From: Arenicola marina
Taxonomy: Eukaryota; Annelida; Polychaeta; Arenicolidae
Reading direction: 5' to 3'
Length of the DNA: 64,000 bases
Assembly (NCBI GenBank): GCA_964019135.1
Contig: OZ025261.1
Location: 36,322,820 to 36,386,819 of the forward strand
Under the pieces are notes generated by a model that worked only from the letters and a program-made list of their open reading frames with translations, did not search any database and was not told the origin of the DNA. The position numbers and the translations under genes are program-made. This document shows positions 8,870 through 64,000 of the stretch, in pieces. The stretch's first letter is position 1. Each line of letters opens with the position of its first letter.

Positions 8870-11800
8870 TTAGCAACCGGAAGTACCCGCGCAGCAGTTC
8901 TGGACATTGGCCCAGTAGCCCTCGGTGTTGGAGTTGTTGCAGCCGTTGGGGCCTCCGTTGTGGATCCTGGCGTAGTCCTCGCAGGTCGGGGTGCGGCCCC
9001 CGGTGCAGTAGGTGCCGTAGCGAGCCATATAGTCCCTCACGCACTGACTGGAGCACGTGTAGTCGTTGGCGCAGTTACGCCACGCCGTGTCGTCTGGAAG
9101 GAAACGGAGGGAAGGATCGAATTAAATTTTAAAAAGTCGGACATTCCGATGATATTTCTGCACCAATGTTCACGTGTTATGATGTTCACCCAACGGATTA
9201 TTTACGAATTGTCTCAGAACCCAACAAAGGTGCGTATATTGGAGGACATTTTAAAGCTGGGCGCGAAAAAAAACGCCTTAAAGGTAATATCACGAATATC
9301 GAGGAATTCGTAGACTGCTATAACGAATCGCGGTAAATCGGCAAAGAGTCTTGGCGTTGAACCAGGATTTGTAACGATAACGATAAAAAAAACAGCTAAT
9401 CCCGAATCTCCAAGAATTCCTGGATACCCATCGCAGAGATCAGAAAAAGTATTCCCCGACCCACGTCACAATATTACAGATTTTATGACATGAACAAATA
9501 CAGAATTCACAGCAGACTTACAGCTGTCGCAGGTGGTGGGGTCGATGTACTGGCAGTCGCAGTAATATTCAATCTTGATCTGGTACGGGCCGCAGCTGTC
9601 AGAGTACACGTCGTAGACACACCCGATGTTAGGGTTGCAGTTAGACTCCACCTGTCAACGAAATACAAATCTGGACCGGGGCACACACATTCCCTCATTC
9701 GTCCGGCTCCTTTCTCTTGTAAGTGTTTCCACACAAGTCCTAAGACTGAAGTCCAGCAAAAGGTGTTCACTGGAGTACGTAGGATTAATTATGCTTACTA
9801 CTTCCTCACGAAATCTGTTCATGTAAAGAAAGAGCTTTGAGTCGTTATGACTAGGGTAGGCCCGTTTAATATCTGCCGCCTCGCTTTCGTGAATAGTGTT
9901 TCCTGCGACCCATTTGCTGCCACGTGTTATGCATGTATGTACTCCAGACCCTTGCGGTATTAAGTTACTTGTAGGTGTATCTTGTTTCATAACAGGACAA
10001 CACAACACAACACACAACATCGCCCACTGACTTGACAAATGACAAGGTAAACAGAGCGGAGGCTATATCGAAACTTGTCTGCTTGGCTTGCGTGGAGCTA
10101 ATAATTTTTGTCATTATGTGAATTATCTTGGCAACAGGATTGTGAGTAAGCCAAATTATTTTGTGTCTTTGGCTGAAGCTGACAAATATAATATGATTTT
10201 AAGTTTGTCGATGGAATAGTTCGTGTCAAATTAGAAAACGAGGCGGCAGATATTTTTCGTGCTGACCATAGGTGAACGCAATCTGTTCATATACAACCAC
10301 TGATCTGATCCCTGGCTGATTGCTCTGAACCTGTCACTGCACATCGTGCTATGAGTGTTAGACACGGGTACAACCACTGTTCTGATCCCTGGCTGATTGC
10401 TCTGAGCCTCTCAATGCACATCGTGCTATGAGTTTTAGACACGGGTACAACCACTGTTCTGATCCCTGGCTGATTGCTCTGAGCCTGTCAATGCACATCG
10501 TGCTTTGAGTGTTAGACACGGGTACAACCACTGATCTGATCCCTGGCTGATTGCTCTGAGCCTCTCAATGCACATCGTGCTATGAGTTTTAGACACGGGT
10601 ACAACCACTGTTCTGATCCCTGGCTGATTGCTCTGAGCATGTCAATGCACATCGTGCTATGAGTGTTAGACACGGGTACGACTACTGATCTGATCCCTGG
10701 GTAATTACTCTGAGCCTGTCAATGCACATCGTGCTCTGAGTGTTAGACACGGGTACAACCACTGATCTGATCCCTGGCTGATTGCTCTGAGCCTGTCAAT
10801 GCACATCGTGCTTTGAGTATTAGGCACGGGTACAACCACTGTTCTGATCCCTGGGTAATTGCTCTGAGTCTGTCAATGCACATTGCGCTCTAAGTGTTAG
10901 ACACGGGAACATCCACTGTTCTGATCCCTGGCTGATTGCTCTGAGCCTGTCAATGCACATCCTGCTATGAGTGTTAGACACGGGTACAACCACTGATCTG
11001 ATCCCTGTCTGATTGCTCTGAGCGTGTCAATGCACATCGCGCTCTGAGTGCTAGACATGGGTACAACCAGTGATCTGATCCCTGTCTGATTGCTCTGAGC
11101 CTGTCAATGCACATCGCGCTCTGAGTGCTAGACACGGCCACATTTCCTGATCTGATCCCTGGCTGATTGCTCTGAACCTGTCAATGCACATCGTGCTGTG
11201 AGTGTTAGACACGGGTACAACCACTGATCTGATCCCTGTCTGATTGCTCTGAGCCTGTCAATGCACATCGCGCTCTGAGTGCTAGACACGACCATATTCC
11301 CTGATCTGATGCCCGGCTGATTGCTCTGAGCCTGTCAATGCACGTCGCGCTCTTTGTGTTAAACATGGGTACAACCACTGATTTGATTCCTTTCTGCTGG
11401 CTCTGATCCTGTCAGTGTCACATCGCGCTCTGAGTGTTAGACACGGGAACATCCACTGTTCTGATCCCTGGCTGATTGCTCTGAGCCTGTCAATGCACAT
11501 CGTGCTATGAGTGTTAGACACGGGTACAACCACTGATCTGATCCCTGGCTGATTGCTCTGAGCCTGTCAATGCACATCGCGCTCTGAGTGCTAGACACGG
11601 CCATATTCCCTGGTCTGATCCCTGGCTGATTGCTCTGAGCCTGTCAATGCACATCGCGCTCTGAGTGTTAGACACGGGTGCAACCACTGATCTACCCCTT
11701 AGTGGTCGTTCTGAGCCTGTCAATGCACATCGCGCTCTGAGTTTTAGACACGGCCACATTTACTAATCTGGTCCCTGGTTGATTGCTCTGAGCCTGTCAA

Positions 11801-21253: not shown

Positions 21254-23355
21254 TTAGCAACCAGAAGTAGTGGCGCAGCAGTTCTGGACATTGGCCCAGT
21301 AGCCCTCGGTGTTGGGGTTGTTGCAGCCGTTGGGGCCTCCGTTGTGGATCCTGGCGTAGTCCTCGCAGGTCGGGGTGCGGCCCCCGGTGCAGTAGGTGCC
21401 GTAGCGAGCCATATAATCCCTCACGCACTGACTGGAGCACGTGTAGTCGTTGGCGCAGTTACGCCACGCCGTGTCGTCTGGAAACGAATCAAACATCGGG
21501 TCAGGGCTACTGCTCTGATTGGTCTCTCGCATATGTACGGATAAAACAGGGTATGGAAAAAAATGGAAATCTACCCCAGGAAATCAGGCTTTCTGATGAT
21601 AATGCTTGACCAATGTTTGCGTATAATGATGCCCAGCCAACGAATTATCCACGAATTATCGTCGGATCCAACAAATGTCAGCAGGTGAAAGACTTTGCGA
21701 TATAGGCAAGGCACCATTGCAGGTAGATTAATATGGGCGCCCCAAACAAATTGATTAACTTCGTAATATTGGTGCTCTCATTTCTGTTATATAGACTGGC
21801 TTCTCGACACTAAAGACGGTGCCAGCCGAGATAGATGGCAAATGCAAAGGTGTATATCTTGTTAAATGGGACCGATGTTGAAAGAACCCTACGTTTTATA
21901 AGTACGATCACGTTATAATTCGAACCTCTGTCAACGTGTATTATATGTTTGGGTGAATACAATTCATATAAAAAAGTAGGAATAACGCAATAGCGGTTAG
22001 GCTTACAGTTGCTGCAGGTGGAGGGGTCGATGTACTGGCAGTCGCAGTAGTACTCGATCTTGATCTGGTACGGGCCGCAGCTGTCAGAGTACACGTCGTA
22101 GACACACCCGATGTTAGGGTTGCAGTTAGACTCCACCTGTCAACAAAATACAAATCTGGACCGGGGCACACACATTCCCTCATTCGTCCGGCTCCTTTCT
22201 ATTCTGATTAAGTGTTTCCATATTATGACTTCAAAAAGATTCTAAGTCCAGGAAAATGTGTACGCTGGACATAGGATTACTACAGCAATAGCGCGAGTTA
22301 GCGGGGCGCTAGGCAATTTTATTGGCCCGATATCAAACTGTAGCAGCCCGCCAATTTCTATAATAATGAAAATGAAGGGCTGCTACAGGTTGATGGAAGG
22401 GCCCAAAAAATGTCTAACGACATGCAAAACTCACGTTATTACTATTATTACGAGTTGAATTTAAGTTCTAGATGATCATTCACATGATGGGTTGTGGTCC
22501 TGCTCTCATGACATGGTTTCCTGTTCACTAAACTGATTCTATAAGGCATCGAAGGAGTGAATGACATCTTGAACCAGTGTACAATGCAGTAAAGTTGTGT
22601 ATATATCCAATGTCTAATACAATCAACGATTGTATAATGCAACAAACGAACTATAATGTGGATATTCCAGTGAACCTTACAGTCAACCAATGTATATTAC
22701 ATCCAACCACTGCATATTACAGTCAACCAATGTACATTACAGTCAACCAGTTTATATTCCAGTCATCCAGGGTATACTGCAGGGAACCAGTCGCAGTCTG
22801 AAGCAGGGCACGCAGCATAACTTATTATAACCAATGTCAGATCTGGTTGAAGGAATACATCATGCGGTGCCCAGAGATGGCTACATACGGGTGTTTGCCA
22901 TTCTGACCGACCGCTCACTCACCTGACAGATACAGTTCAGACAGTTGTCGCTGATGGCGGCATTGGCGGCTGCAAACACAGGAAGACAACGATAAAAACT
23001 GCGAAGGTTCAAAATGGAAGACCATTATGCATCTATATTTATGTAAAGTCTATATTTGGCCAAGCTGTGTCGGCCTTCAATCACTATAGCAACGGGTGGT
23101 CACTCTCCACATCGCAACTCTCAATGGTCGAGCCCGAGGGGGGTTCGGGGGGCCCCCCCCCTCCCCCTAAACCGAGCCGCTTGGTGAAGAAGGTATATCT
23201 AAATAATTACATGAAATTAGAGAAAGTCAAATGTTGCGCCCCCCTCCCCCGGCCCTCCCCTCCCCCGACCCATAAACCAAAGTCCTGGATCCGACTCTGA
23301 CTCCCATCACTGACTTACCTGCGATAGCCAGACCGAAGATGAGATAGGAAAGCAT
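21254..23355 (-). CDS. i-type (destabilase) lysozyme, copy 2
   Basis: Secreted invertebrate-type lysozyme, 145 residues. Four coding exons read right to left: 23319-23355 (37 nt), 22923-22969 (47), 22007-22136 (130) and 21254-21477 (224). Lengths and phases are identical to copy 1. The signal peptide is MLSYLIFGLAIAA. The mature part begins around ISDNCLNCICQVES and keeps the catalytic Glu there and the Asp in CVYDVYSDSCG. It then has the CEDYARIHNGGPNGC signature and ends NCCATTSGC. It differs from copy 1 at only a few positions in exons 3 and 4, clustered near the two splice-distal ends, whereas the signal-peptide and exon 2 parts differ strongly. The ~60 bp of intron 2 next to exon 3 is nearly identical in both copies. 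A TATA box lies 64-70 bp upstream and a polyadenylation signal 62 nt downstream, so the gene looks intact. Confidence 0.95.
22600..22795 (+). repeat. Degenerate ~21-bp tandem repeat in lysozyme 2 intron 2
   Basis: Eight or so loose units of the type CAGTCAACCAATGTATATTA. Intron 2 thus carries tandem repeats in all three lysozyme genes. Confidence 0.7.
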
Positions 23356-33792: not shown

Positions 33793-36700
33793 GTGAGGGC
33801 TAGTGATAACCCGGGAGACACTGGCCCTAAAGATACTCCTAAACTTCAAATCCATCCGGGAGGCGAATCTGATTCGCCAAGATCTATGAAGCAGCCACAA
33901 GTAAGTTCTGGTATCGAGGCAAACACCCATGTCTTTAGGGTTAAGCCAGCAAGGGGTTGGATGTTGCATGCCCAGATGTATGGTGCTGATTGTCCCCTGC
34001 TCTTGGATACTGGTGCTTCAGTTTCCTTGATTGATAACCAGACTTACATGGCAATAAATCCTAGCCAACGCCTTGCTCTGAAGCCTGCAAGTGCGCAGCT
34101 TTCCATGATTGATGGGGAACACATGAGTCTAATGGGTGAGACATGTGTTGAACTTGTGCTTGATGGGATGTGTATTTCTCAAGATGTTGTCATTGCCAAA
34201 CTACCTGAGCGTGGTGGGATCCTGGGATTAGATTTTCTTCAGGATCATGGTTGCGAGATGTCGATGCGAGATGGCCTTCTGAGAGTAGGAAAGTTGACTT
34301 TTGCCCTCAGGAAGGAAGGTAAACAAGATCGAGTCACTCGTGTCAGGTTGGAGAAGTCTATTGAGATTCCCCCAGGTACAGAGGTAGTGGTGACAGCCAG
34401 GGCAGAGAACAAGCTGCAGTACCTTAATGGAAGCAATGCACTGTTAACGCCAACTCGTAACCTGCATGAGGATAGAGGTGTGGTGGTAGCGTCATCACTT
34501 GTTGCCCCTGACACGAAACACATTCCAGTCGTGTTGTTGAACACAACTGATGAGTCTGTACACTTACGTAAGGGCAGCACTGTGGGAGTGCTCGAATCCC
34601 TTCCCTGTAACCGGGTTATTCAGGTACCCGACAGTGATTTTGTTGAGGGCACAGGTATGACAGACCAAAGGCATGTAAACCTCCCACCCTCCCTTGAAAA
34701 GCTTTGCACTGATGTCTCACCCGAGTTGACTGACGCACAGAAGCAAGCAGTCAGGGCTGTTGTGACAGAACATCAGGGAATTTTCGCTGAAACTACTGAT
34801 GAGTTGGGACGAACAGACTTAGTAAAGCACCGCATTGACACTGGTGAAGCCTATCCCATACGTCAACGTGCTCGCCACCTCCCCCTTAACCAGCAGGAAA
34901 TAGAAGCAGCGGAGATTAAGTCAATGCTGGAGAGAGGTGTAATCGAACCAAGCACCAGTTCATGGAGCAGTCCAGTGGTGTTAGTTAAGAAAAAGGATGG
35001 GAGCACACGGTTCTGTGTCGACTATCGTAAATTGAATGATGTCACACGAAAGGATGCATATCCCCTTCCTTTGATCTCTGATACACTGGATGCCCTGTCT
35101 GGTTCTCAGTGGTCTTGTACACTGGATCTCGCCTCTGGTTACTGGCAGGTAGAGATGGATGAGCGGGATAAAGAAAAAAACTGCTTTCATTTCACGTCAG
35201 GGTCTGTTCCAGTGGAAGGTGATGCCGTTCGGCTTGGCAAACGCGCCTGCCAGTTTTGAGCGACTCATGGAACTCGTGCTGTGTGGGTTGTGCTGGAAGA
35301 GCTGCCTTGTATACCTTGATGACGTCATTGTCTTTGGCAGGACGTTCGAAGAAACTCTAAGCCGTCTGACAACTGTGTGGGACAGGCTGCGAGAGGCTAA
35401 ATTGAAAATGAAGGCTGTCAAGTGCAAGCTATTCCAGACAGAGGTCCCATACCTAGGTCACGTGGTTTCTCGTGAGGGTATAGCAACCGATCCTGCAAAG
35501 GTGTCAGCTGTTCGTGACTGGCCCAGACCCAGTACTGGGAAGGAGCTGCGTAGCTTTCTTGGGTTGGCTTCCTACTACAGGCGGTTTATCCCTCGATTCT
35601 CACAGATTGCGAGTTCTTTGACTGCATTGACTCGTAAGAATGTGACGTTCAGCTGGTCAGAAGCTAGGGAGGTGTCATTTAGAACCATACAAAAGGCCCT
35701 CTGTGAATCACCAGTGCTGGGTTACCCTACCAGACACGACCCTTTCATTGTTTACACTGATGCTAGTGCTGATGCAATGGGATGCGTGCTGGCGCAGAAA
35801 CAGGCAGGTGGGGAGAAGGTCATAGCGTATGCATCCAAGACGTTCAGTCGGACCCAAGCCCGCTACTGCACCACCCATCGTGAGCTTCTCGCAGTGGTGA
35901 CATTTATCAAGCAGTTTCGTCACTACTTGTGGGGTCGGCCGTTCACTGTTGTTACTGATCATGCTTTCCTCACCTGGCTCTTGAACTTCCGAGATGCAGA
36001 AGGAATGGTAGCTAGATGGCTGACTACACTGGGGACTTATGATTTCAATATTGTCCACAAGCCAGGAGTCATGGCCATGCAGATGCTCTGTCTCGTAAGG
36101 TAACACGCCCATGTAAACGGGCAGAGTGTCAAGACTGCCTTCCACGCAGGGTGACTGCGGAGCCAGTGACTGACAATCCGTCCCCAGAGACAATGCCCAG
36201 CATACAGGCTGTACTCTGTGACAAGTCGAATGACAGTCAGTCGGTCGCTAATGCTGGGACAGCGGCTGTGTCCCAAGCGTCAAGCGATAGCTTGTTGGCC
36301 GAACCACTGGGTGAAGGTCAGTTGCCATCCATTGTGTCCCAGGAGTCGACTACTACTGGTCCAGAGAGCGAGGCGGTAGCGGCGCCGAGTGTGCGTGCCC
36401 TACAGTGGGTGCCGGAAGTTACCTTAAGTGACATTCGTCGCTGGCAGAGCGAGAATGAGAGTATCGAATGCATGCTCAATCACAAGAGGAGCCGGGCTCA
36501 CAAACCTCCATTCGCTGAAATCAGGGATCAGAGTAGCGTGACCAAGTGCCTGTGGCAACAGTGGGATAGTCTAACCATTGAGGATGGGGTTTTGTATCGC
36601 AGAAAGAAGGCAAGTTGCGACGTTGATGAGGCACTGCAGCTGGTGGTGCCACCTCCGTTAAGGCGACGCTTATTCCAGGCCGTACACTGTGACCGCCTGG

Positions 36701-37948
36701 GCGGACACATGGGCCATACGAAGTCCTTATCATCGCTCCAGAAGAGTTTCTACTGGCCAAGGATGTCAGCTGACGTGAGTCGTTGGTTGATTTTGTGTAG
36801 GGACTGTGGGCAGCGGAAGCCGGCGTCAGTCCCACACAGAGTTCCACTCACGCAGATGCCAGTAGGAGAGCCATGGGAACGTATTGCGATGGACTTAGTT
36901 AGCCCCATGCCAGATGCTGGCACTGGGAAGAGGTATGTTCTTGTGGTAGAGGATTACTTCACCAGGTGGGTTGAAGGGTTCGCTCTGCCTAATAAAGAGG
37001 CACAGACGGTGGCAGACAAACTCGTCACAGAAGTGTTCTGTCGGTTTGGCTGCCCTCGCCAACTTCACTCTGATAGGGGCAGGGAGTTTGACAACCAACT
37101 CCTGCAGGAGGTTTGTCGTTTGATGCGGATTGAACGAACCTTGACCACGCCATACCGGCCTCAGTCGGACGGCCTCGTGGAAAACTTCAACCGTGTCTTA
37201 CAGGACATGATCTTTACCTATGCTCGCCTGCACCCGCAGGACTGGGAAGATCACCTGCCGTATGTGCTGTGTGCCTATCGCTCGACTGAGCACAGGAGCA
37301 GCAGAGTGTCGCCCTACAGACTGTTGTTTGGTCGGGACATAACCCTCCCACTGGATCTGCAGGTTGAAGGTCCTCCCAGGGAGCGCGCCCCAGCCTGTGT
37401 CACCGCCTATGGTGAGTGGTTGCGGGATGCAATGGAAATTGGACAGCATAGCCAGACGAGAAAGTCGGAAGGCAGCTGTGCGCCAAAAGACTAACTATGA
37501 CATGAGGGCGACCCCAGTCAACTTCCCGATAGGTAGCTGGGTGTGGCGCTACTGTACAGCCACTGCAAGGGTTAAAGGGGGAATCCGGTGGTCTGGTCCT
37601 TTCCTGGTGGTCCGCCGTCCATCGGCTGTCAATGTGGCTATTCAGCGATCTTCCGTTCAAAAGCCAATTGTAGAACATGTCGATCACCTGAAGGAGTATG
37701 TGGAGGACCCGGATGAACCGCTGATCAGTTGGCTGTCAACGCCCTCGGCAACTGATGATGACGAGACTGTGGATGAGCAGACGGGTATGGCTGACGGCCG
37801 TGACGCCTCTGCTGAGGTACCGGACGAGACAGCGCCTGCTGACAGTGTGTCAGGCAGTGAGGCTGAGACGTCAGACACGGGAGAGGCAGAGCCTGTCCCC
37901 CGCCGCGGCGAGCGCGTGCGGCGACCACCGGTCCGCATGGATCTGTGA
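33793..37948 (+). pseudogene. pol region of the Ty3/gypsy element (PR-RT-RH-IN)
   Basis: Domains in order are as follows. The retropepsin motif LLLDTGASVSLID is at about 33997. Reverse transcriptase has CVDYRKLNDVT at about 35018 and the catalytic YLDDVIVFGR at about 35310. RNase H has VYTDASADAMGCVLAQ at about 35750. Integrase has an HHCC zinc-binding head (GHMGHTKSL, CRDCGQRK), core Asp in AMDLVSPMP, SDRGREFDN and Glu in SDGLVENFNR. A GPF-type C-terminal module (SGPFLVVRR) precedes an acidic tail. This order defines Ty3/gypsy. No chromodomain was recognised. Reading is interrupted by a small number of breaks. Confidence 0.92.
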
Positions 37949-38759: not shown

Positions 38760-41366
38760 ATGACAGACCCCCCAGGGGTGGCAAACCCGCCCGAGATGTC
38801 CGCTGCGGCCCAGACGACAGAGGGACCAGCGACGTCAGCGCCCTGCTGTGGGTCCGACGCCCTGAGTCAGCTGGTCGCACCGCTTAGCGATGGAACTCCA
38901 CCCTCCTGCTGTGGAGTGGAGGCGGATGTCACAGAGGTACCGGCCATGGGGGCGCTGGAGGCTCAGTTGGTGGCTTTGGTCGATGAGGACCCCGCCCCGG
39001 TTGAGAGGATGGAGGAGTCTCCTTCCACCGTCACCGAGGCCGCTACGTTCTGTGTCGTCGCGCCGTCCGGGGTCCTCATCGACATTCCGGACGAGGTTTG
39101 TATGGAGAGTACCGGCCCTCTGCAGGTGGTGTCCTCGGGCTCGTCGTGTCCTCCGTTGGGAGCACGTAGCCTGATGGAGCGGAACGGTCCCATGTTTGAT
39201 GGCATCGTTCAGCCCAGGACCGCGGAGGCGAGGGCGCGGATGATTGCGCAGGAGGAGGAAGGGACTGGTAAGATCCTTCCTCTCTCGCAGTGGAAGAGTG
39301 GTGAAGGGTTTAGCTGTCGGGTAAGCAGCTGCCCTATGGCCGACCATGTGTTTCCGCGGGTGGCGGCCCTGCGACGTCATTGGCGGGCGTTTCACTTGGG
39401 GCTGATAATTTACTTTATCAGCCCCGACGGGGAACGTTACTTCAAACGCCATGATGAAGCGAGGCGTTACCTGGCGAAGCAGGGGCTGGAGGTGAAATCA
39501 GGGCAGATACACGTCGCCCTGGGACGAAACCCTCAGCGTGTGGTCGCGGATGTGCGCCTTCCACCGGTGGTCTCATCGGTGAAGGCGCCTCCGTTTAAGG
39601 GGAGGCGTAGGCTGTCGAGAGAGCGTGGCCCTATAGGTAAGAGGGTTCGGCGTTGCGCGTCTCCTTCCCCGGCACCCTACCAGGCTAGGACCATGTCCTA
39701 TGCAGGGGCCGTTACGAAACCTCCGCAAGCCAACAGGCCGGCCGGAGCGCTTGCTACCCCAACTCCTGTTCTGAGGAGTGAATCTCGCCGCGAGTGCGTA
39801 GCAGATTCAGGCCCTATTGCGCACCGAGAGCCTAGTGGTGACCGGCGGGGACGTAACGAGCCGCCTGTCGAGCAGGGGGGTGTGGCAGGTGAGACGTGGG
39901 AGGACGGTGAGGATGTCGGGTTTACTGATTACGGTAAGCTGTTGAGGGATCAGCCCGAGAAGCCTATTGAGACTTCGTCGGGGCTGTACCTGTACAGCAT
40001 CGCCTATTCCGGTCATGTCAACTACGACGCCCTTCCGTCCACTACCGGGGGCTTTGTCAAGTATGACAGTAGACTTCGGCCGTACGCAACTATATGCGTG
40101 GCCTCTGGTCGGGGATCTTGCTCCGTGACGTGCCTGGTGAAGGGCATGTTCAACATGAGTATCGCCCGGATCCGCGCACGGTGCAACGAGGAATGTGCCG
40201 TGCAGAAGGTCAGACCCTTGTTCCAGGGCGGTCGGACAACGGCTAGTGAAGCCGAAGTCATGTACTACGCCACCCCCTATGGGTACGAGCAGGTCTGGCG
40301 GGAGTACGAGCGTCAGCGGTCGGCTGGCCGTCCCAAGCCCCAGGCGCGCCCCACTGGTGTGCCTCGTGGGCCGAGGACTAGGCCTGAGCGTCAGCTCACG
40401 TCCACGGCCTCGGGCTCCTTCGCTGCCACCGACATCCGGTTTAAGGATAAGGTCACTTCCTCTGCCGTGAACCAGCGGGCCGATGCGGCAGCTTGTGCCA
40501 CCGGCGCTGAAGCGACGGAAGACCTGGGGAAGCCGGCCGTGGCCCCAACCACGGTGGATCTCGGCTCCCCGGGCACTACTAATGAGCCAGCGGTAACCGT
40601 CTGCCGTTTAGGCGGCGGCGAACGCCGGCATTATTTCTCACCTCAGGAACCGAACGGATCGGAGCAACCGGTGACGCCCATGGACGAGACGCGGCCGCCG
40701 CCGCCAACCGATCGGCAGCCCGCCGAACCCCTAGTCTCGCGGCAACTGACGCCGCCAGTGGTCGGCCAGAGTGGTGCAGCGTGCGCGCCCAGTCCGTGCG
40801 AGGACCAAGTGCCGCCGTCGGATCTGAGGGAGTCCCTGCTGCAATCCATGCGGGAAGCCCAGGACTCCTTCCGCCGGTTGTGCTCCAGAGCCCAGGCCAC
40901 TCTTGAGCGGGGCCAAGGTGCCTTCGAGAGTGGTTACCAGGCGGGTCACAGTTTCGCCTCGGCCGCAGCCGACCAGACTCTTCGTGACTGTCAGAGCCAA
41001 CTGGGGGCGCTGACCCGCCAGCTCCAGGATGCCCAGTCAGAAACAGCGTCCTGGAAAGCGAGGGCCCTGGAAGCGGAAAACCGGGGACACAACTCCGCGG
41101 CGGCAGCAACAACCAACGGGCGCGCCGCTGTGGCGGCGAGTGGCGTTCCGCCAACGACGACGGCGCCACTGCAGCTCTTAGGAGCAGCCGCGCGGACACT
41201 CAACTTGGCCCGGGACCCCATCCCAGCTCTTCCAGAGACCCGCATCACAGACAATGGTCGGGAGCTCAGCCATGCTGAGTTTCCGGACGTACAAACCAAC
41301 TACGTGAAGATGCGGCGTCTCTGGAACGACGTCTACGCAGCGCGGCGCTCTGACAACGGACAGTGA
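38760..41366 (+). CDS. Third ORF of the Ty3/gypsy element: zinc-finger-like, coiled-coil protein of unknown role
   Basis: An 868-residue frame lies between pol and the 3' LTR, where some relatives carry env. It has no signal peptide and no membrane segment, so it does not look like an envelope protein. Residues 186-212 form a C2H2-like finger (C-x4-C-x15-H-x4-H). Directly after it, residues about 220-240 (SPDGERYFKRHDEARRYL) faintly recall methyl-CpG-binding (MBD/TAM) domains. A second ordered-looking block lies at about 400-530 (YDALPSTTGGFVKYDSRLRP). Pro/Ser-rich linkers separate the blocks. Residues about 689-782 look like an Ala/Gln/Glu-rich coiled coil. DNA or chromatin binding is plausible but inferred. 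I do not know a named family for it. Confidence 0.7.
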   Translation: MTDPPGVANPPEMSAAAQTTEGPATSAPCCGSDALSQLVAPLSDGTPPSCCGVEADVTEVPAMGALEAQLVALVDEDPAPVERMEESPSTVTEAATFCVVAPSGVLIDIPDEVCMESTGPLQVVSSGSSCPPLGARSLMERNGPMFDGIVQPRTAEARARMIAQEEEGTGKILPLSQWKSGEGFSCRVSSCPMADHVFPRVAALRRHWRAFHLGLIIYFISPDGERYFKRHDEARRYLAKQGLEVKSGQIHVALGRNPQRVVADVRLPPVVSSVKAPPFKGRRRLSRERGPIGKRVRRCASPSPAPYQARTMSYAGAVTKPPQANRPAGALATPTPVLRSESRRECVADSGPIAHREPSGDRRGRNEPPVEQGGVAGETWEDGEDVGFTDYGKLLRDQPEKPIETSSGLYLYSIAYSGHVNYDALPSTTGGFVKYDSRLRPYATICVASGRGSCSVTCLVKGMFNMSIARIRARCNEECAVQKVRPLFQGGRTTASEAEVMYYATPYGYEQVWREYERQRSAGRPKPQARPTGVPRGPRTRPERQLTSTASGSFAATDIRFKDKVTSSAVNQRADAAACATGAEATEDLGKPAVAPTTVDLGSPGTTNEPAVTVCRLGGGERRHYFSPQEPNGSEQPVTPMDETRPPPPTDRQPAEPLVSRQLTPPVVGQSGAACAPSPCEDQVPPSDLRESLLQSMREAQDSFRRLCSRAQATLERGQGAFESGYQAGHSFASAAADQTLRDCQSQLGALTRQLQDAQSETASWKARALEAENRGHNSAAAATTNGRAAVAASGVPPTTTAPLQLLGAAARTLNLARDPIPALPETRITDNGRELSHAEFPDVQTNYVKMRRLWNDVYAARRSDNGQ

Positions 41367-46194: not shown

Positions 46195-49100
46195 ATGTTA
46201 CGACTGATGGTCTTCGTGGCGATCCTGGCGGGTAAGACAAGCTGTTACGGTGTCTGGTTTGGATAGTCTGGGCTTAGGACAGGACTGAGGTCACAGTGGT
46301 AGGCCTAATGCTATAACATACTCATAATACCGACTAGTCCACACACTAGCTGGCATTACCAATCGCGTTTTATGAGCCTTTCCAACAAGCGGTTGGTTTC
46401 AAATGAGACCTGGCCCAATTTAGCCTGTATGTGCACAAAAGTGGCCTAAAACACCAACATTCCTCAAATGAGACCCCTTGAAAAGCGATCTATTTTTAGA
46501 TTACGGGGTAATTCACCTTGGCCGAAGCTCCCTGGTGTGATGGGTAAATAGCAGACACCCGCCGTGTTGAAACTCGTTGGGCTTATTGTAGGCCATCTCT
46601 ACACTCATATAGGAATATTTTTCCCGAGAAAGTTAACTTGTTTTGAATGAGAATAATAAAATTTTTGTAAGTATTGCATTTTCAAGGAATTTAAGTTCTA
46701 AAGTGTATGGGAACATATTAATGGCACGGAATGAATAACGGTGTTACATGTTGTTGCGCCACTTCTTATATGTTGTATTGTATGTTGTACAATACAACAT
46801 ATAAGTTATGTTGTGTACAACATAACATGTTGTGTACAACACGTGTACAACACAACATAACATGTTGTGTACAACACAACATGTTGTGTTGTATTGTATA
46901 TTGTATTGTTGTATTTCTGGTCGAAATAAATGATGATGTGACATATATGTCCAAACCACAGGCACAGTGGGGGGGGGGGCGGGGTCCGCTAATGTAGTGA
47001 CAGTCGATTTAATGTGCCTGTGGTCCAAACTGGTGCCCCGCGTGTGGCAAAAACGTGGGTATCACTGGCGGCTATTAGGATAAATGCTTAATATACACCC
47101 CCCCCCTCACCCCCCCCCCCCACCCTTGAGGGACAGGAGTTACATCCAGACCGTTACATAACGCAGACACATATCGCCTTACATAAAACCATCACACCGG
47201 GCTTTGAGTACATACACAGAGAGACCGCAACGACATCGTGCAGGAAGGACCCCAGCCAGGCAGAGAGAGAGAGAGAGAGAGGGGAGATGGGTGAGGTTGT
47301 TTTGTCGTTTCTACCAGTTATCTGAACCCGGAGTTGCACTACAAATGTCCTACATATCTGTATGCATGGCTTCATCTACCAGTTATCTGTCTTGGTTCTT
47401 TCAGGATCGCAGGCCGGAGTCACTACTAACTGTCTTCATTGCATCTGTGAGGTGAGTGGTATGAGCGGGGTAATTAGGCTATATGGCTATATGATGTTAA
47501 CACAGATGTTGGCTCCAAACGTTGTTGCCCAGAACCTATTGTTCAAGGCCACGTGACACAGCTACACAGATCACTGATTACATGTCGTAAGCAGCAGGGA
47601 ATGTAGCATCCCGGAAGCTGGGATGCAACTGGTGCTCAGACCAGGGCTAAGCACGCCTACACTGAGGCTACACCCGCCTACGCACGCCTACACTGAGGCT
47701 ACACCCGCCTACACACGCCTACACTGAGGCTACACTGGCCTTCGAACGCCTACACTGAGGCTACGCACGCCTACACACGCCTACACTGAGGCTACACTGA
47801 GCCTACACTGAGGCTACGCACGCCTACGCACGCCTACACTGAGGCTACACTGAGCCTACACTGAGGCTACGCACGCCTACGCACGCCTACACTGAGGCTA
47901 CACTGAGCCTACACTGAGGCTACGCACGCCTACGCACGCCTACACTGAGGCTACACCGGCCTTCGAACGCCTACACTGAGGCGACGCACGCCTACACACG
48001 CCTACACTGAGGCTACACCCACCTACGCACGCCTACACTGAGGCTACACCCGCCTACACCCGCCTACACTGAGGCTACACCCGCCTACACACGCCTACAC
48101 TGAGGCTACACCCACCTACGCACGCCTACACTGAGGCTACACCGGCCTACCCACACGTACACTGAAGCTACACCCGCCTACGCTGAGGCTACATCCGCCT
48201 ACACACGCCTACACTGAGGCTACACCTGCCTACGCACGCCTACACTGAGGCTACACCTGCCTACGTACGCTTACACTGAGGCTACACTCGCCTACGCTGA
48301 GGCTACACCCGCCTACACTGAGGCTACACCCGCCTACGCACGCCTTCACTGAAGCTGCACCCGCCTACGCTGAGGCTGCACCGCCTACGCACGTCTACGC
48401 TGATTTTACACCTGCCTACGCACGCCTACACTGAGGCTACGCCCGCCTACGCACGCCTACACTGAGGCTACACCCGTCTACGCACGCCTACACTGAGGCT
48501 ACAACCGCCTATGCTAAGGCTAAACCCGCCAACGCACGCCTACAATGGGGCTACACCTGCCTACGCACGCCTACACTGAGGCTACACCCCGAGGCTGGTC
48601 ATAACGGAGTCCTCCGAAATGTTGACCTCCTCAGCAATTGCAAATAGCGTACATTTTGTGTCATTTGACATCCTCGTTCGAAAAAAAACCCAGCCCTCCC
48701 CAGGGGACCCCCATTCCGTCTCCCCAGGAGACCACCCAGGAACCCCCGGGGACCCCCAGGGACCCCCAGGGACCCCCAGGGACCCCCCGGGTAACCGCTC
48801 CCCTCCCCCTACTGGATCCGCTACTGGATACAATTGTGTTATTTCGTTTCTTTGTCGCAGACGGAATCTCACTGCGATCCTGCCAAAGGCTGCACATATG
48901 ACGTGTATTCGGAGAGCTGTGGGCCCTACCAGATCAAGCTACCCTACTACTGTGACTGCAAGAATATCAGCCCCAATAACTGTCGCAGTCGTAAGTTCTC
49001 ATCAACCCTTACTGGTCGTGAGGCTGTCAGTGGGCTGTTTTCAGTACTGATTTAATAAAAGCCTGCTTAGTCTAAATATGTAGGTACATCGTCGGTTTCT

Positions 49101-51655
49101 AACCCTTTATATTGATACGGCGGTTCCTCTCCTGTATCTTACGGACATTACTTCCTTTTATCTTACGCCAATTTCAGTACATTATCTTACGGCCTTTCCC
49201 TTACTGTATCTTACGGTCATCTCTTTACATTTTCTTACAGCCATTGTTTTTACTGTAGCTTACAGTCATGCCTTTCCTTTACCTTACGGCCATTCCTTTC
49301 CTTTATCTTACCGCTATTCCTTCCATTTATCTTACGGTTATTCCTGTTTTTCCCCCGCCATTTATTGTATTTATCTTACGACCCTTCCCCCCTTTATCTT
49401 TCGTTCTGTTATTAATCACGTGCCACGGATGTGTGTCGCCCATGTCATACCGGATGTCATACATCATACTGACAGATGTTATACAATACACTGATAGATG
49501 TCATACATTACACTGACAGATATTATGCATTATACTGACAGACGTTATACATTACACTGACAGATGTTATACATTACACTGACAGATGTTATACATTACA
49601 CTGACAGATGTTATACATTACACTGACAGATGTTATCCATCACACTGACAGATGTTATACATTACACTGACAGATGTAATGCATTACACTGACATGTTAT
49701 CCATTACACTGACAGATGTAATACATTACCCTGACAGATGTTATCCATCACACTGACAGATGTTATACATTACACTGACAGATGTAATGCATTACACTGA
49801 CATGTTATCCATTACACGGACAGATGTTATACATTACCCTGACAGATGTAATACATTACCCTGACAGATGTTATCCATCACACTGACAGATGTTATGCAT
49901 TACACTGACAGATGTTATACATTACACTGACATGTTATCCATTATACTGATAGATGAAATACATTACCCTGACAGATGATATCCATTACACTGACAAATG
50001 TTATACATTACACTGACAGATGTTATCCATCACACTGACAGATGTTATACATTACCCTGACAGATGTTATACATTACCCTGACAGATGTTATCCATCACA
50101 CTGACAGATGTTATACATTACACTGACAGATGTTATACATTACACTGACAGATGTTATACATTACACTGACATGTTATCCATTACACTGGCAGATGTAAT
50201 ACATTACCCTGACAGATGTTATCCATCACACTGACAGATGTTATACATTACACTGACAGATATTATCCATCACACTGACAGATGTTATACATTACACTGA
50301 CAGATGTAATGCATTACACTGACATGTTATCCATTACACGGACAGATGTTATACATTACCCTGACAGATGTTATACATTACCCTGACATGTTATCCATTA
50401 CACGGACAGATGTTATACATTACCCTGACAGATGTAATACATTACCCTGACAGATGTTATCCATCACACTGACAGATGTTATGCATTACACTGACAGATG
50501 TTATACATTACACTGACATGTTATCCATTACACTGATAGATGTAATACATTACCCTGACAGATGTTATCCATTACACTGACAGATGTTATACATTACACT
50601 GACAGATGTTATCCATCACACTGACAGATGTTATACATTACCCTGACAGATGTTATACATTACCCTGACAGATGTTATCCATCACACTGACAGATGTTAT
50701 ACATTACACTGACAGATGTTATACATTACACTGACAGATGTTATACATTACACTGACATGTTATCCATTACACTGGCAGATGTAATACATTACCCTGACA
50801 GATGTTATCCATCACACTGACAGATGTTATACATTTCACTGACAGATATTATCCATCACACTGACAGATGTTATACATTACACTGACAGATGTAATGCAT
50901 TACACTGACATGTTATCCATTACACGGACAGATGTTATACATTACCCTGACAGATGTTATACATTACCCTGACAGATGGTATCCATCACACTGACAGATG
51001 TTATGCATTACACTGACAGATGTTATACATTACACTGACATGTTATCCATTACACTGATAGATGTAATACATTAGCCTGACAGATGTTATCCATCACACT
51101 GACAGATGTTATACATTACACTGACATATGTTATCCATCACACTGACAGATGTTATACATTACCCTGACAGATGTTATACATTACCCTGACAGATGTTAT
51201 CCGTCACACTGACAGATGTTATACATTACACTGACAGATGTTATACATTACACTGACATGTTATCTATTACACTGACAGATGTAATACATTACCCTGACA
51301 GATGTTATCCATCACACTGACAGATGTCGTACATTACACTGACAGATGTTATCCATCACACTGACAGATGTTATACATTACACTGACAGATCTAATGCAT
51401 TACACTGACATGTTATCCATTACACTGACAGATGAGGCCGCGTGGAAGTCGTGCGCTCTGAACATGACGTGCGCCACCGCCTGTGTGTCGAGCTACGTGA
51501 CCCGTTACGGGACACACTGCACCGGACCCCGCACCCCGACCTGCCAGGACTACGCCAGGATCCACAACGGGGGACCCAAGGGATGCCGGAAGCAAGCGAC
51601 CGAGAAATATTGGGCAATAGTCAACAAGTGTTGCCAGGCCACGACGGGATGCTGA
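46195..51655 (+). CDS. i-type (destabilase) lysozyme, copy 3
   Basis: Secreted invertebrate-type lysozyme, 145 residues. Coding exons are 46195-46231 (37 nt), 47405-47451 (47), 48861-48990 (130) and 51432-51655 (224). Lengths and phases (1, 0, 1) are exactly those of copies 1 and 2. The signal peptide is MLRLMVFVAILAG. Catalytic Glu lies in CICETES and Asp in CTYDVYSESCG. The signature CQDYARIHNGGPKGC and a Cys-rich end (NKCCQATTGC) follow. NMT in exon 4 is a possible N-glycosylation site. It is clearly more diverged than copies 1 and 2 are from each other and lies on the opposite strand. Introns 1, 2 and 3 hold palindromes, a ~31-bp minisatellite and a 22-bp minisatellite. The exon 4 acceptor is the last unit of that 22-bp array. 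Confidence 0.95.
46765..46915. repeat. GT/AC palindrome cluster in lysozyme 3 intron 1
   Basis: An 18-bp perfect inverted repeat (CTTATATGTTGTATTGTA and its complement, 46765-46805) is followed by several overlapping TGTTGTGTACAACA palindromes to about 46890. This run could extrude as hairpins or cruciforms. Confidence 0.85.
47645..48595 (+). repeat. ~31-bp minisatellite in lysozyme 3 intron 2
   Basis: Irregular units built from CACGCCTACACTGAGGCTAC and CACCCGCCTACG, in sub-units of 15-16 bp. A further 10-bp repeat, GACCCCCAGG, lies at about 48750-48790. Confidence 0.9.
49100..49400 (+). repeat. Degenerate ~23-bp repeat in lysozyme 3 intron 3
   Basis: Loose units with ATCTTACGGCCATTCCTTT. 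It precedes the 22-bp array. Confidence 0.7.
49445..51434 (+). repeat. 22-bp minisatellite reaching the exon 4 splice acceptor of lysozyme 3
   Basis: About 90 units of 20-22 bp, each containing CATTACACTGACAGATG or a variant (CATCACACTGACAG, CATTACCCTGACAG). Higher-order copies recur: TGTTATGCAT at 49891, 50477 and 50999, so blocks of about 0.52-0.59 kb were duplicated. The last unit's CACTGACAG is the acceptor of exon 4 at 51432, and its ATG supplies the first coding bases. Confidence 0.95.
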
Positions 51656-55906: not shown

Positions 55907-58900
55907 TGAACACCCCCACACACAGAGAGGAGGCGGACACAGGTCAGGCCAACACCCCCACACACAGGGAGCAGGCGGCCACAGGTCAGGCCAACACCCC
56001 CACACACAGGGAGAAGGCGGACACAGGTCAGGCCAACACCCCCACACACAGGGAGGAGGCGGACACAGGTCAGGCCAACACCCCCTCACACAGGGAGGAG
56101 GCGGCCACAGGTCAGGCCAACACCCCCACACACAGGGAGAAGGCGGACACAGGTCAGACCAACACCCCCACACACAGGGAGGAGTCGGAGACAGGTCAGG
56201 CCAACACCCCCACACACAGGGAGGAGGCGGACACAGGTCAGGCCAACACCCCCACACACAGGGAGGACGCGGACACAGGTCAGGCCAACACCCCCACACA
56301 CAGGGAGGAGGCGGACACAGGTCAGGCCAACACCCCCACACACAGGGAGGAGGCGGACACATGTCAGGCCAACACCCCCACACACAGAGAAGGAGGCGGA
56401 CACAGGTCAGGCCAACACCCCCTCACACAGGGAGGAGGCGGACACAGGTCAGGCCAACACCTCCACACACAGGGAGGAGGCGGACACATGTCAGGCCAAC
56501 ACCCCCACACACAGAGAAGGAGGCGGACACAGGTCAGGCCAACACCCCCACACACAGGGAGGAGGCGAACACAGGTCAGCGCAACACCCCCACACACAGG
56601 GAGGAGGCGGACACAGGTCAGGCCAACACCCCCACACACAGAGAGAAGGCGGACACAGGTCAGGACAACACCCCCACACACAGGGAGGAGGCGGACACAG
56701 GTCCGGCCAACACCCCCACACACAGGGAGGAGGCGGACACAGGTCAGGCCAACACCCCCACACACAGGGAGGAGGCGGACACAGGTCAGGCCAACACCCC
56801 CACACACAGAGAGGAGGCGGACACAGGTCAGGCCAACACCCCCACACACAGGGAGGAGGCGGACACAGGTCAGACCAACACCCCCACACACAGAGAGGAG
56901 GCGGACACAGGTCAGGCCAACACCCCCACACACAGAGAGGAGGCGGACACAGGTCAGGACAACACCCCCCCACACAGGGAGGAGGCGGACACAGGTCAGG
57001 CCAACACCCCCACACACAGGGAGGAGGCGGACACAGGTCAGGCCAACACCCCCACACACAGGGAGGAGGCGGACACAGGTCAGACCAACACCCCCACACA
57101 CAGGAAGGAGGCGGACACAGGTCAGGCCAACACCCCCACACACAGGGAGGAGGCGGACATAGGTCAGGCTAACACCCCCACACACAGGGAGGAGGCGGAC
57201 ACAGGTCAGGCCAACACCCCCACACACAGGGAGGAGGCGGACACAGGTCAGGCCAACACCCCCACACACAGGGAGGAGGCGGACACAGGTCAGGCCAACA
57301 CCCCCACGCACAGAGAGGAGGCGGACACAGGTCAGGCCAACACCCCCACACACAGGGAGGAGGCGGACACAGGTCAGGCCAACACCCCCACACACAGAGA
57401 GGAGGCGGACATAGGTCAGGCCAACACCCCCACACACAGGGAGGAGACGGACACAGGTCAGGCCAACACCCCCACACACAGGGAGGAGGCGGACACAGGT
57501 CAGGCCAACACCCCCACACACAGGGAGGAGGCGGACACAGGTCAGGCCAACACCCCCACACACAGAGAGGAGGCGGACACAGGTCAGGCCAACACCCCCA
57601 CACACAGGGAGGAGGCGGACACAGGTCAGACCAACACCCCCACACACAGGAAGGAGGCGAACACATGTCAGGCCAACACCCCCACACACAGGGAGGAGGC
57701 GGACACAGGTCAGGCTAACACCCCCACACACAGGGAGGAGGCGGACACAGGTCAGGCCAACACCCCCACACACAGGGAGGAGGCGGACACAGGTCAGGCC
57801 AACATCCCCACACACAGGAAGGAGACGGACACAGGTCAGGCCAACACCCCCACACACAGGGAGCAGGCAGACACAGGTCAGGCCAACACCCCCACACACA
57901 GGGAGGAGGCGGACACAGGTCAGGCCAACACCCCCACACACAGGGAGGAGGCGGACACAGGTCAGGCCAACAGCCCAGCGCACAGGGAGGAGGCGGACAC
58001 ATGTCAGGCCAACACTCCCACACACAGGGAGGAGGCGGACACAGGTCAGGCCAACACCCCCACACACAGGAAGGAGGCGGACACAGGTCAGGCCAACACC
58101 CCCACACACAGGGAGGAGGCGGACACATGTCCAGCCAACACCCCCACACACAGGGAGGAGGCGGACACAGGTCAGGCCAACACCCCCACACACAGGGAGG
58201 AGGCGGACACAGGTCAGGCCAACACCCCCACACACAGAGAGGAGGCGGACACAGGTCAGGCCAACACCCCCACACACAAGGAGGAGGCGGACACAGGTCA
58301 GACCAACGCCCCCACACACAGGAAGGAGGCGAACACATGTCAGGCCAACACCCCCACACACAGGGAGGAGGCGGACACAGGTCAGGCTAACACCCCCACA
58401 CACAGGGAGGAGGCGGACACAGGTCAGGCCAACACCCCCACACACAGGGAGGAGGCGGACACAGGTCAGGCCAACACCCCCACACACAGGGAGGACGCGG
58501 ACACAGGTCAGGCCAACACCCCCACACACAGGGAGAAGGCGGACACAGGTCAGGCCAACACCCCCACACACAGGAAGGAGGCGGACACAGGTCAGGCCAA
58601 CACCCCCACACACAGGGAGGAGGCGGACACAGGTCAGGCCAACACCCCCACACACAGGGAGGAGGCGGACACAGGTCAGGCCAACACCCCCACACACAGA
58701 GAGGAGGCGGACACAGGTCAGGCCAACACCCCCACACACAGGGAGGAGGCGGACACAGGTCAGACCAACACCCCCACACACAGGAAGGAGGCGAACACAT
58801 GTCAGGCCAACACCCACACACAGGGAGGAGGCGGACACAGGTCAGGCTAACACCCCCACACACAGGGAGGAGGCGGACACAGGTCAGGCCAACACCCCCA

Positions 58901-61900
58901 CACACAGGGAGGAGGCGGACACAGGTCAGGCCAACACCCCCACACACAGGGAGGAGGCGGACACAGGTCAGGCCAACACCCCCACACACAGGGAGGAGGC
59001 GGACACATGTCAGGCCAACACCCCCACACACAGGGAGGAGGCGGACACAGGTCAGGCCAACACCCCCACACACAGGGAGGAGGCGGACACAGGTCAGGCC
59101 AACAACCCAACGCACAGGGAGGAGGCGGACACATGTCAGGCCAACACCCCCACACACAGGGAGGAGGCGGACACAGGTCAGGCCAACACCCATACACACA
59201 GGAAGGAGGCGGACACAGGTCAGGCCAACACCCCCACACACAGGGAGGAGGCGGACACATGTCCAGCCAACACCCCCACACACAGGGAGGAGGCGGACAC
59301 AGGTCAGGCCAACACCCCCACACACAGGGAGGAGGCGGACACAGGTCAGGCCAACACCCCCACACACAGGGAGGAGGCGGACACAGGTCAGGCCAACACC
59401 CCCACACACAGGGAGGAGGCGGACACAGGTCAGGCCAACACCCCCACACACAGGGAGGAGGCGGACACAGGTCAGGCCAACACCCCCACACACAGGAAGG
59501 AGGCGGACACAGGTCAGGCCAACACCCCCACACACAGGGAGGAGGCGGACACATGTCCGGCCAACACCCCCACACACAGGGAGGAGGCGGACACAGGTCA
59601 GGCCAACACCCCCACACACAGGGAGGAGGCGGACACAGGTCAGGCCAACACCCCCACACACAGGGAGGAGGCGGACACATGTCAGGCCAACACCCCCACA
59701 CACAGGGAGGAGGCGGACACAGGTCAGGCCAACACCCCCACACACAGGGAGGAGGCGGACACAGGTCAGGCCAACACCCCCTCACACAGGGAGGAGGCGG
59801 ACATAGGTCAGGCCAACACCCCCACACACAGGGAGGAGGCGGACACAGGTCAGGCCAACAGCCCAACGCACAGGGAGCAAGCGGACACATGTCAGGCCAA
59901 CACCCCCACACACAGGGAGGAGGCGGACACAGGTCAGGCCAACTCCCCCACACACAGGAAGGAGGCGGACACAGGTCAGGCCAACACCCCCACACACAGG
60001 GAGGAGGCGGACACAGGTCAGGCCAACACCCCCACACACAGGGAGGAGGCGGACACAGGTCAGGCCAACACCCCCACACACAGGGAGGAGGCGGACACAG
60101 GTCAGGCCAACACCCCCACACACAGGGAGGAGGCGGACACAGGTCAGGCCAACACCCCCACACACAGGGAGGAGGCGGACACAGGTCAGGCCAACACCCC
60201 CACACACAGGAAGGAGGCGGACCCAGGTCAGGCCAACACCCCCACACACAGGGAGGAGGCGGACACATGTCCGGCCAACACCCCCACACACAGGGAGGAG
60301 GCGGACACAGGTCAGGCCAACACCCCCACACACAGGGAGGAGGCGGACACAGGTCAGGCCAACACCCCCACACACAGGGAGGAGGCGGACACATGTCAGG
60401 CCAACACCCCCACACACAGGGAGGAGGCGGACACAGGTCAGGCCAACACCCCCACACACAGGGAGGAGGCGGACACAAGTCAGGCCAACACCCCCTCACA
60501 CAGGGAGGAGGCGGACATAGGTCAGGCCAACACCCCCACACACAGGGAGAAGGCGGACACAGGTCAGGCCAACACCCCCACACACAGGGAGGAGGCGGAC
60601 ACAGGCCAGGCCAACACCCCCACACACAGGGAGGAGGCGGACACATGTCAGGCCAACACCCCCACACACAGGGAGGAGGCGGACACAGGTCAGGCCAACA
60701 CCCCCACACACAGGAAGGAGGCGGACACAGGTCAGGCTAACACCCCCACACACAGAGTGGAGGCGGACACATGTCAGGCCAACACCCCCACACACAGGGA
60801 GGAGGCGGACATAGCTCAGGCCAACACCCCCGGACACAGAGAAGAGGCGGACACAGGTCAGGCCAACCCCCCCGCACACAGGGAGGAGGCGGACACAGGT
60901 CAGGCCGACACCCCCACACACAGGGAGGAGGCGGACCAGGTCAGGCCAACACCCCCACACACAGGGAGGAGGCGGACACATGTCAGGCCAACACCCCCAC
61001 ACACAGAGAGGAGGCGGACACAGGTCAGGCCAACACCCCCACACACAGGGAGGAGGCGGACACAGGTCAGACCAACACCCCCACCCACAGGAAGGAGGCG
61101 GACACAGGTCAGACCAACACCCCCACACACAGGGAGGAGGCAGACACAGGTCAGGCCAAAACCCCCACACACAGGGAGCAGGCGGACACAGGTCAGGCCA
61201 ACACCCCCGCACACAGGGAGGAGGCGGACACAGGTCAGGCCAACACCCCCACACACAGGGAGGAGGCGGACACAGGTCAGGCCAACACCCCCACACACAG
61301 GGAGGAGGCGGACACAGGTCAGGCCAACACTCCCACACACAGGGAGGAGGCGGACACAGGTCAGGCCAACACCCCCACACACAGGGAGGAGGCGGACATA
61401 GGTCAGGCCAACACCCCCACACACAGGGAGGAGGCGGACACAGGTCAGGCTAACACCCCCACACACAGGGAGGAGGCAGACACAGGTCAGGCCAACACCC
61501 CCACACACAGGGACGAGGCGGACACAGGTCAGGCCAACACCCCCACACACAGGGAGGAGGCGGACACAGGTCAGGCCAACACCCCCACACACAGGGAGGA
61601 GGCGGACACAGGTCAGGCCAACACCCACACACACAGGGAGGAGGCGGACACAGGTCAGGCCAACACCCCCACACACAGGGAGGAGGCGGACACAGGTCAG
61701 GCCAACACCCACACACACACAGAGGCGGCGGACACAGGTCAGGCCAACAGCCCAACGCACAGGGAGGAGGCGGACACAGGTCATCCCAACACCCCCACAC
61801 ACAGGGAGGAGGCGGACACAGGTCAGGCCAACACCCCCACACACAGGAAGGAGGCGGACACAGGTCAGGCTAACACCCCCACACACAGAGAGGAGGCGGA

Positions 61901-64000
61901 CACAGGTCAGGCCAACACCCCGACACACAGGGAGGAGGCGGACACAGGTCAGCCGAACACCCCCACACACAGGGAGGAGGCGGACACAGGTCAGGCCAAC
62001 ACCCCCACACACAGGGAGGAGGCGGACACAGGTCAGGCCAACACCCCCACACACAGGGAGGAGGGGGACACAGGTCAGGCCAACACCCCCACACACAGGG
62101 AGCAGGCGGACACAGGTCAGGCCAACACCCCCACACACAGGGAGGAGGCGGCCACAGGTCAGGCTAACACCCCCACACACAGGGAGGAGGCGGACACAGG
62201 TCAGGCCAACACCCCGACACACAGGGAGGAGGCGGACATAGGTCAGGCCAACACCCCCACACACAGGGAGGAGGCGGACACAGGTCAGGCCAACACCCCG
62301 ACACACAGGGAGGAGGCGGACACAGGTCAGACCAACACCCCCACACACAGGGAGGAGGCGGACATAGGTCAGGCCAACACCCCCACACACAGAGAGGAGG
62401 CGGAGACAGGTCAGGCCAACACCCCCACACACAGGGAGGAGGCGGCCACAGGTCAGGCCAACACCCCCACACACAGGGAGGAGGCGGACACAGGTCAGGC
62501 CAACACCCCCACACACCGGGAGGAGGCGGACACAGGTCAGGCCAACACCCCCACACACAGGGAGGAGGCGAACACAGGTCAGGCCAACACCCCCACACAC
62601 AGGGAGGAGGCGGACACAGGTCAGGCCAACACCCCCACACACAGGGAGGAGGCGGACACAGGTCAGGCCAACACCCCCACACACAGGGAGGAGGCGGCCA
62701 CAGGTCAGGCCAACACCCCCACACACAGGGAGGAGGCGGACACAGGTCAGGCCAACAGCCCAACGCACAGGGAGGAGGCGGACACAGGTCAGCCCAACAC
62801 CCCCACACACAGGGAGGAGGCGGACACAGGTCAGGCCAACACCCCCACACACAGGAAGGAGGCGGACACAGGTCAGCCCAACACCCACACACACCGAGAG
62901 ACGGCGGACACAGGTCAGGCCAACAGCCCAACGCACAGGAGGAGGCGGACACAGGTCAGCCCAACACCCCCACACACAGGGAGGAGGCGGACACAGGTCA
63001 GGCCAACACCCCCACACACAGGGAGGAGGCGGACACAGGTCAGGCCAACACCCCCCCACACAGAGAGGAGGCGGACACAGGTCAGCCGAACACCCCCACA
63101 CACAGGGAGGAAGCGGACACAGGTCAGGCCAACACCCCCACACACAGGGAGCAGGCGGACACAGGTCAGTCCAACACCCCCACACACAGGGAGGAGGCGG
63201 ACACATGTCAGGCCAACACCCCCACACACAGGGAGGAGGCGGACATAGGTCAGGTCAACACCCCCACACACAGGGAGGAGGCGGACACAGGTCAGGCCAA
63301 CACCCCCACACACAGAGAGGAGGCGGACACAGGTCAGACCAACACCCCCACACACAGAGAGGAGGCGGACACAGGTCAGGCCAACACCCCCACACACAGG
63401 GAGGAGGCGGACACAGGTCAGGCCAACACCCCCACACACAGGGAGGAGGCGGACACAGGTCAGGCCAACACCCCCACACACAGGGAGGAGGCGGACACAG
63501 GTCAGGCCAACACCCCCACACACAGGAAGGAGGCGGACACAGGTCAGGCCAACACCCCCACACACAGAGAGGAGGCGGACACAGGTCAGGCCAACACCCC
63601 CACACACAGGGAGGAGGCGGACACAGGTCAGGTCAACACCCCCACACACAGGGAGGAGGCGGACACAGGTCAGGCCAACACCCCCACACGCAGAGAAGAG
63701 GCGGACACAGGTCAGGACAACACCCCCACACACAGGGAGGAGGCGGACACAGGTCAGGCCAACACCCCCACACACAGGGAGGAGGCGGACACAGGTCAGG
63801 CCAACACCCCCACACACAGGGAGGAGGCGGACACAGGTCAGGGCAACACCCCCACACACAGGGAGTAGGCGGACACAGGTCAGGCCAACACCCCCACACA
63901 CAGGGAGGATGCGGACACAGGTCAGGCCAACACCCCCACACACAGGAAGAAGGCGGACACAGGTCAAGCCAACACCCCCACACACAGAGAGGAGGCGGAC
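55907..64000 (+). repeat. 42-bp minisatellite, about 190 units, open at the window end
   Basis: The unit has AACACCCCCACACACAGGGA followed by GGAGGCGGACACAGGTCAGG and CC. It runs without a break from 55907 to the last base and so continues beyond the window. Most units differ at 0-3 positions. Recurrent variants mark higher-order duplication: CAGACCAACACC with AAGGAGGCGAACACATGTC occurs at 57627, 58299 and 58761, spacings of exactly 16 and 11 units. An AACAGCCCAACGCACAGG variant recurs at about 57970, 59103, 59862, 61748, 62757 and 62929. The 42-bp stop-free unit opens frames of up to 829 residues on both strands. Changes look random with respect to codon position. Confidence 0.98.

Follow-up and report, generated by a model that had tools for sequence, protein, structure and literature searches.

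A minisatellite at the 3′ end of a lysozyme intron in Arenicola marina carries the predicted exon 4 acceptor in its last unit

Boundary repeats in other genes and the lysozyme 3 array

In amphioxus, tandem repeats termed mirages lie across exon–intron boundaries in Adh3 and the globin genes BflGb6 and BflGb9, and also in PGBD5 and troponin C (PMC3087553, PMC3902484). As described in the sections of these reports available to us, splice signals occur in many but not all of the units and splicing is normal; the units measure 10–72 bp in Adh3 and 150–160 bp in BflGb6, which has 3 and 6 copies in two haplotypes. Other accounts, likewise drawn from partial text, concern the IFI6 (6-16) minisatellite, which holds multiple splice donors and in which downstream units are used (Turri 1995, cited in PMC4526556), human duplicated genes in which internal tandem repeats at exon–intron boundaries form new introns, with transcript support (PMC2812944), and earthworm metallothionein genes whose first intron is filled with minisatellite sequence (PMC12783039).

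We analyzed a 64-kb window (G000:C14:36322820-36386819) of the 867-Mb assembly of Arenicola marina, finding a 22-bp minisatellite that takes up the 3′-terminal part of intron 3 in a lysozyme gene, lysozyme 3, and is contiguous with exon 4. Two of the features that characterize a mirage, a minisatellite at an exon–intron boundary and a splice signal in many of its units, are present. Like the amphioxus mirages, as far as the available sections describe them, the array crosses a boundary in minisatellite-like units, of which many, though not all, carry signals, and lies in an otherwise normal gene. It differs from them in having about 90 units of 22 bp, 3 exonic bases and an acceptor alone, and in belonging to a lysozyme of a lophotrochozoan; moreover, instability and normal splicing are shown for the amphioxus mirages, whereas the lysozyme 3 array is known from the sequence of one assembly. 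We regard it as a probable further case, and a long one, of the published boundary-repeat type that has its precedent in amphioxus. In the literature searched, which was partial, we found no report of a mirage in a lysozyme or in a lophotrochozoan.

The remaining systems, again to the extent that their sources were available, are more distant parallels. IFI6 shares with lysozyme 3 repeat units as alternative splice sites, which are donors in IFI6 and candidate acceptors in lysozyme 3. The human cases likewise combine boundary repeats with duplicated genes, but lysozyme 3 keeps its old intron position. The earthworm metallothionein genes resemble lysozyme 3 as duplicated invertebrate genes with a minisatellite-rich intron; their arrays lie in intron 1, and the text available states of none that it holds a splice site, whereas the lysozyme 3 array holds the acceptor.

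The lysozyme genes, the array and the exon 4 acceptor

The window contains three invertebrate-type (i-type) lysozyme genes, of which lysozyme 3 is encoded by the plus strand and its paralogs 1 and 2 by the minus strand. Exons 3 and 4 of lysozyme 3, used as a query against the assembly, gave six matches at E <= 0.001, all of them exons of these three genes. Our model of lysozyme 3 covers exons 2–4, all on the plus strand: exon 2 (47405..47451) was located by tblastn with the paralog exon 2 and is flanked in the sequence by an acceptor CAG and a donor GTGAGT; exon 3 (48861..48990) ends in phase 1 on a C, followed by the donor GTAAGT; and exon 4 (51432..51655), which is 224 nt long including the stop codon, was placed by frame, length and comparison with the paralogs. 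The corresponding minus-strand exons 3 and 4 are at 22007..22136 and 21254..21477 in paralog 1 and at 9522..9651 and 8870..9093 in paralog 2. Intron 3 of both paralogs is without an array, so this feature is probably confined to lysozyme 3.

The lysozyme 3 protein matches PF05497 at 104.2 bits against a cut-off of 26.2, identifying it as an invertebrate-type lysozyme (destabilase), and Glu17 and Asp29, which we take to be the catalytic residues, are invariant in 12 of 12 aligned sequences. Comparison with paralog 2 over 117 codons gave a dN of 0.31 and a dS of 1.29 (dN/dS ~0.24). With an open frame, the PF05497 match, the invariant Glu17 and Asp29 and this ratio, lysozyme 3 looks like a working gene. 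Lysozyme 3 has its best named hits in Eisenia andrei and Hirudo; those of paralog 1 are in Eisenia andrei, followed by Liolophura and Haliotis. From CDC to the following Trp, the stretch in lysozyme 3 and paralog 1 exceeds that of 10 aligned homologs by 4–8 residues, and intron 3 of these two genes interrupts this variable loop at the exon 3/4 junction.

The 22-bp array extends over 49453..51434 on the plus strand, as delimited by TRF and a unit parse, with its final 3 bases inside exon 4. TRF reports 91.2 copies and also calls a second period of 152; our parse resolves the array into 91 unit cores, of which 78 belong to 22-bp units, 12 to 20-bp units and one to a degenerate piece at the leading end; the consensus is GATGTTATACATTACACTGACA. 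The 5′ edge is degenerate, and the 3′ edge, which terminates in the exon, is sharp. Within the array a 651-bp block is repeated at an offset of 586 with 98.3% identity, suggesting that turnover has been recent. An earlier note on this DNA had credited every unit with the same CTGAC-CAG context, which we find in most units but not in all: 81 of the 91 cores contain CTGAC (10 lack it) and 77 of the 91 junctions have AG, so that the splice signal recurs in many units. Twelve of the 14 junctions without AG precede 20-bp units and two are mutated, and the junction directly before the true acceptor is among the 14. A separate, degenerate 24-bp array found by TRF occupies part of the 5′ half of intron 3 (49116..49345, plus strand), and a 31-bp array lies in intron 2 (47647-48589).

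The last unit ends in CACTGACAG, with the acceptor AG at 51430..51431 (plus strand; placed by frame, exon length and the paralogs), and is followed directly by ATGAGGCC, so that the boundary runs between CACTGACAG and ATGAGGCC. The array thereby crosses from intron to exon at 51431/51432, and the first three bases of exon 4, ATG, belong to the repeat unit; the earlier note had already read the array as continuing into exon 4 and supplying its acceptor and first bases, and the TRF end at 51434 agrees. Exon 4 opens with AT GAG GCC in lysozyme 3 and, after CAG, with AC GAC ACG in both paralogs. Because frame, the 224-nt length and phase 1 agree with both paralogs, a match on which the earlier note had also relied and which we confirmed, the start of exon 4 at 51432 is firmly predicted from homology and frame.

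A CTGAC at 51405..51409 (plus strand) resembles a branch point and may act as one, its A at 51408 lying 22 nt before the acceptor AG, the spacing previously proposed. No AG intervenes between this motif and the acceptor, because the junction there is one of those lacking AG, and the nearest upstream AG is 42 nt off. An AG immediately after a branch point is too close for use; in ordinary 22-bp units an AG follows directly on CTGAC, and the following AG is one unit further on. From −20 to −5 the terminal acceptor has a T fraction of 0.38, compared with 0.50–0.62 for eight sibling acceptors, and its pyrimidine fraction of 0.62 equals that of three of the eight. A single functional acceptor in the terminal unit, with the copies upstream of it passive, would account for this arrangement; the low T fraction counts against it. 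An intact ACTGACA core occurs in three of the twelve 20-bp units, including the terminal one, a small number of units from which to infer selection. We found no RNA structure above chance around the acceptor (z -0.32; 67/200 shuffles equally or more stable), and we rejected a recursive splice site (AG/GT), the unit junctions being CAG/ATG.

Origin of the array and use of its copies

We favor, with a probability of about 0.55, the explanation that the array was seeded by the boundary itself and that its terminal copy is the real acceptor, the other copies being passive. The original intron-3/exon-4 boundary stretch, ~19 nt of intron plus ATG, would have been duplicated in tandem and the duplicate expanded by slippage and unequal exchange to ~90 copies, of which the one adjoining the exon would now serve as the actual acceptor. 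Splicing would most likely proceed through this terminal copy alone, the last AG before the coding sequence, with the terminal CTGAC as the branch-like site 22 nt upstream and without an AG in between. Nearly all of the upstream copies would truncate the protein if used; they would merely fill the intron, and selection on the reading frame would keep them from entering the exon. We infer the seeding event, the use of the terminal AG and the silence of the upstream copies, the last of these helped by the undisturbed splicing that the available sections report for amphioxus boundary repeats.

For the origin of the unit, we searched the 867-Mb genome with its exact 17-mer, CATTACACTGACAGATG, obtaining 22 matches, all within this array, which favors a local birth. 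Allowing up to one mismatch on both strands gave 98 matches, of which 26 lie outside the array, several in unrelated arrays; a reversed-pattern control gave 4, and this excess counts against the favored explanation. There is no intron sequence between the array and exon 4 and the unit holds the first three exon bases, both of which favor seeding at the boundary. Exon 4 begins A-C-G-A in the paralogs and A-T-G-A in lysozyme 3, so that two of the three exonic bases of the unit are shared with genes that have no array, although the exonic part is 3 nt only (ATG), with a chance expectation of ~1/64. A tentative alternative, to which we give clearly less credence, is that the array was born inside intron 3 away from the boundary and then grew into it, or met it through a deletion that removed the old acceptor, after which a repeat AG took over and the 3-nt match arose by chance. 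The abundance of tandem arrays, which account for 37% of the sequence in our 20 sampled 10-kb stretches, and the second array at 49116-49345 in the same intron speak for such an origin, as do another array that stops 15 nt from a paralog 2 donor and the paralogs themselves, which show no boundary source of the unit. Searching intron 3 of the paralogs for such a source gave nothing convincing, with a match at chance level in paralog 2 (133/300 shuffles) and a marginal one in paralog 1 (6/300 shuffles) that lies near the donor end, not at the acceptor. Paralogs 1 and 2 have homologous third introns (score 69, 0/300 shuffles), and the 5′ portion of this intron in lysozyme 3 has no detectable homology to either (125/300 and 79/300 shuffles as good). 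An independently born array, however, requires that an in-frame AG at the exon and three exon bases were matched by chance, and no remnant of an older acceptor remains between the array and exon 4. Duplication of the acceptor region, as the earlier note had proposed, is still the best guess: the exact unit is found only here, no intron is left and the overlap covers 3 nt, but intron 3 of the paralogs offers no convincing source.

The recurrence of AG at 77 of 91 junctions and of CTGAC in 81 of 91 cores could also be read functionally. The array would then provide an immune gene with a ladder of as many as 77 acceptors, several of them in use. How much lysozyme is made, or in which form, would depend on copy number, whose possible effect on splicing the earlier note had raised, or on a 42-nt alternative; the yield of functional mRNA would depend on how long the array is and how its last units are ordered; and splicing at 51388 would give a second isoform with a repeat-coded 14-residue loop. 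Going beyond the earlier note, we tested 78 array AGs for frame, finding that two of them, at 51430 and 51388, and not one alone, give a full-length protein. The alternative candidate AG (51388..51389, plus strand) adds 42 nt, or 14 residues, without a stop; the insertion would extend the CDC-to-Trp stretch, where loop length varies among the 10 aligned homologs, and the longer form still matches PF05497, at 96.3 bits. We nevertheless consider a functional ladder improbable, given that the other 76 AGs run into a stop codon, which in 62 cases comes after 13 codons, and that amphioxus boundary repeats, in the sections available, are reported to splice normally (PMC3087553, PMC3902484). If it were true, the same could apply at hundreds of splice junctions in this array-rich genome. 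An assembly artefact or a pseudogene is still more improbable: the units carry variants in an ordered higher-order pattern as well as the recurring 651-bp block (98.3% identity), the locus lies on a 41.5-Mb contig, and the gene retains its open frame and key residues at a dN/dS of ~0.24.

The locus offers a clean natural construct for asking how the splicing machinery settles on a single acceptor when dozens of near-identical AGs and branch-like motifs are present, and it also bears on what stops a fast-changing array from ruining the adjoining exon. If the case is typical of this repeat-rich genome, boundary minisatellites would extend well beyond amphioxus and would be a possible source of shifted intron boundaries.

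Tandem arrays in the genome and their proximity to splice junctions

We surveyed 20 stretches of 10 kb, chosen by us on nine contigs, for arrays with a period >= 10 and a length >= 60. Arrays took up 37% of the bases surveyed, and their edges occurred at a density of 0.51 per kb. In six of the 20 stretches more than half of the sequence was array, in four of these over 99%, and three stretches had no arrays. The window itself holds 27 arrays in 64 kb (28% of bases, 0.84 edges per kb), and the genome seems exceptional in its minisatellite and satellite content. Among the 15 lysozyme junctions that we placed, one is in contact with an array, another is 15 nt from one and the remaining 13 are at least 64 nt from any, in a set of distances for which two positions were set 1 and 6 bases off. 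Assuming that array edges are independent of genes, the chance that at least one of the 15 junctions has an edge no more than 3 nt away is roughly 5–9%. The array is beyond doubt, and its contact with the exon is, taken alone, mildly improbable in this genome. Given the 37% array content of the sampled stretches, many such contacts may exist in the genome, a prevalence estimated from array density.

We also considered a second boundary repeat, in intron 2 of paralog 2, where a 77-bp array of 22.8 copies (10292-12045) has one end at a distance of 15 nt from the donor of exon 2. Its unit resembles the end of exon 2 (TGCATTGCCAGG beside TGCATCTGCCAGG), but 108 of 1000 shuffles were as good; when exon 2 together with an upstream part was compared with the unit, 29 of 1000 shuffles were as good and the alignment fell elsewhere. 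Because the match is not significant, we dropped this candidate.

Arrays that share CACTGACAGATG occur at G000:C1:16990136-16991897 (~35 bp spacing), C1:65257366-65257629 (~18) and C2:35465684-35466075 (~19). Within the window, a 42-bp array of ~193 copies (55909-64000) extends past the window end and has one frame open for 1328 codons. Long open frames are also present at 32750-37948 and 38760-41366; by eye, they resemble a Ty3/gypsy-type element and, for the second, a protein that includes a zinc-finger-like stretch.
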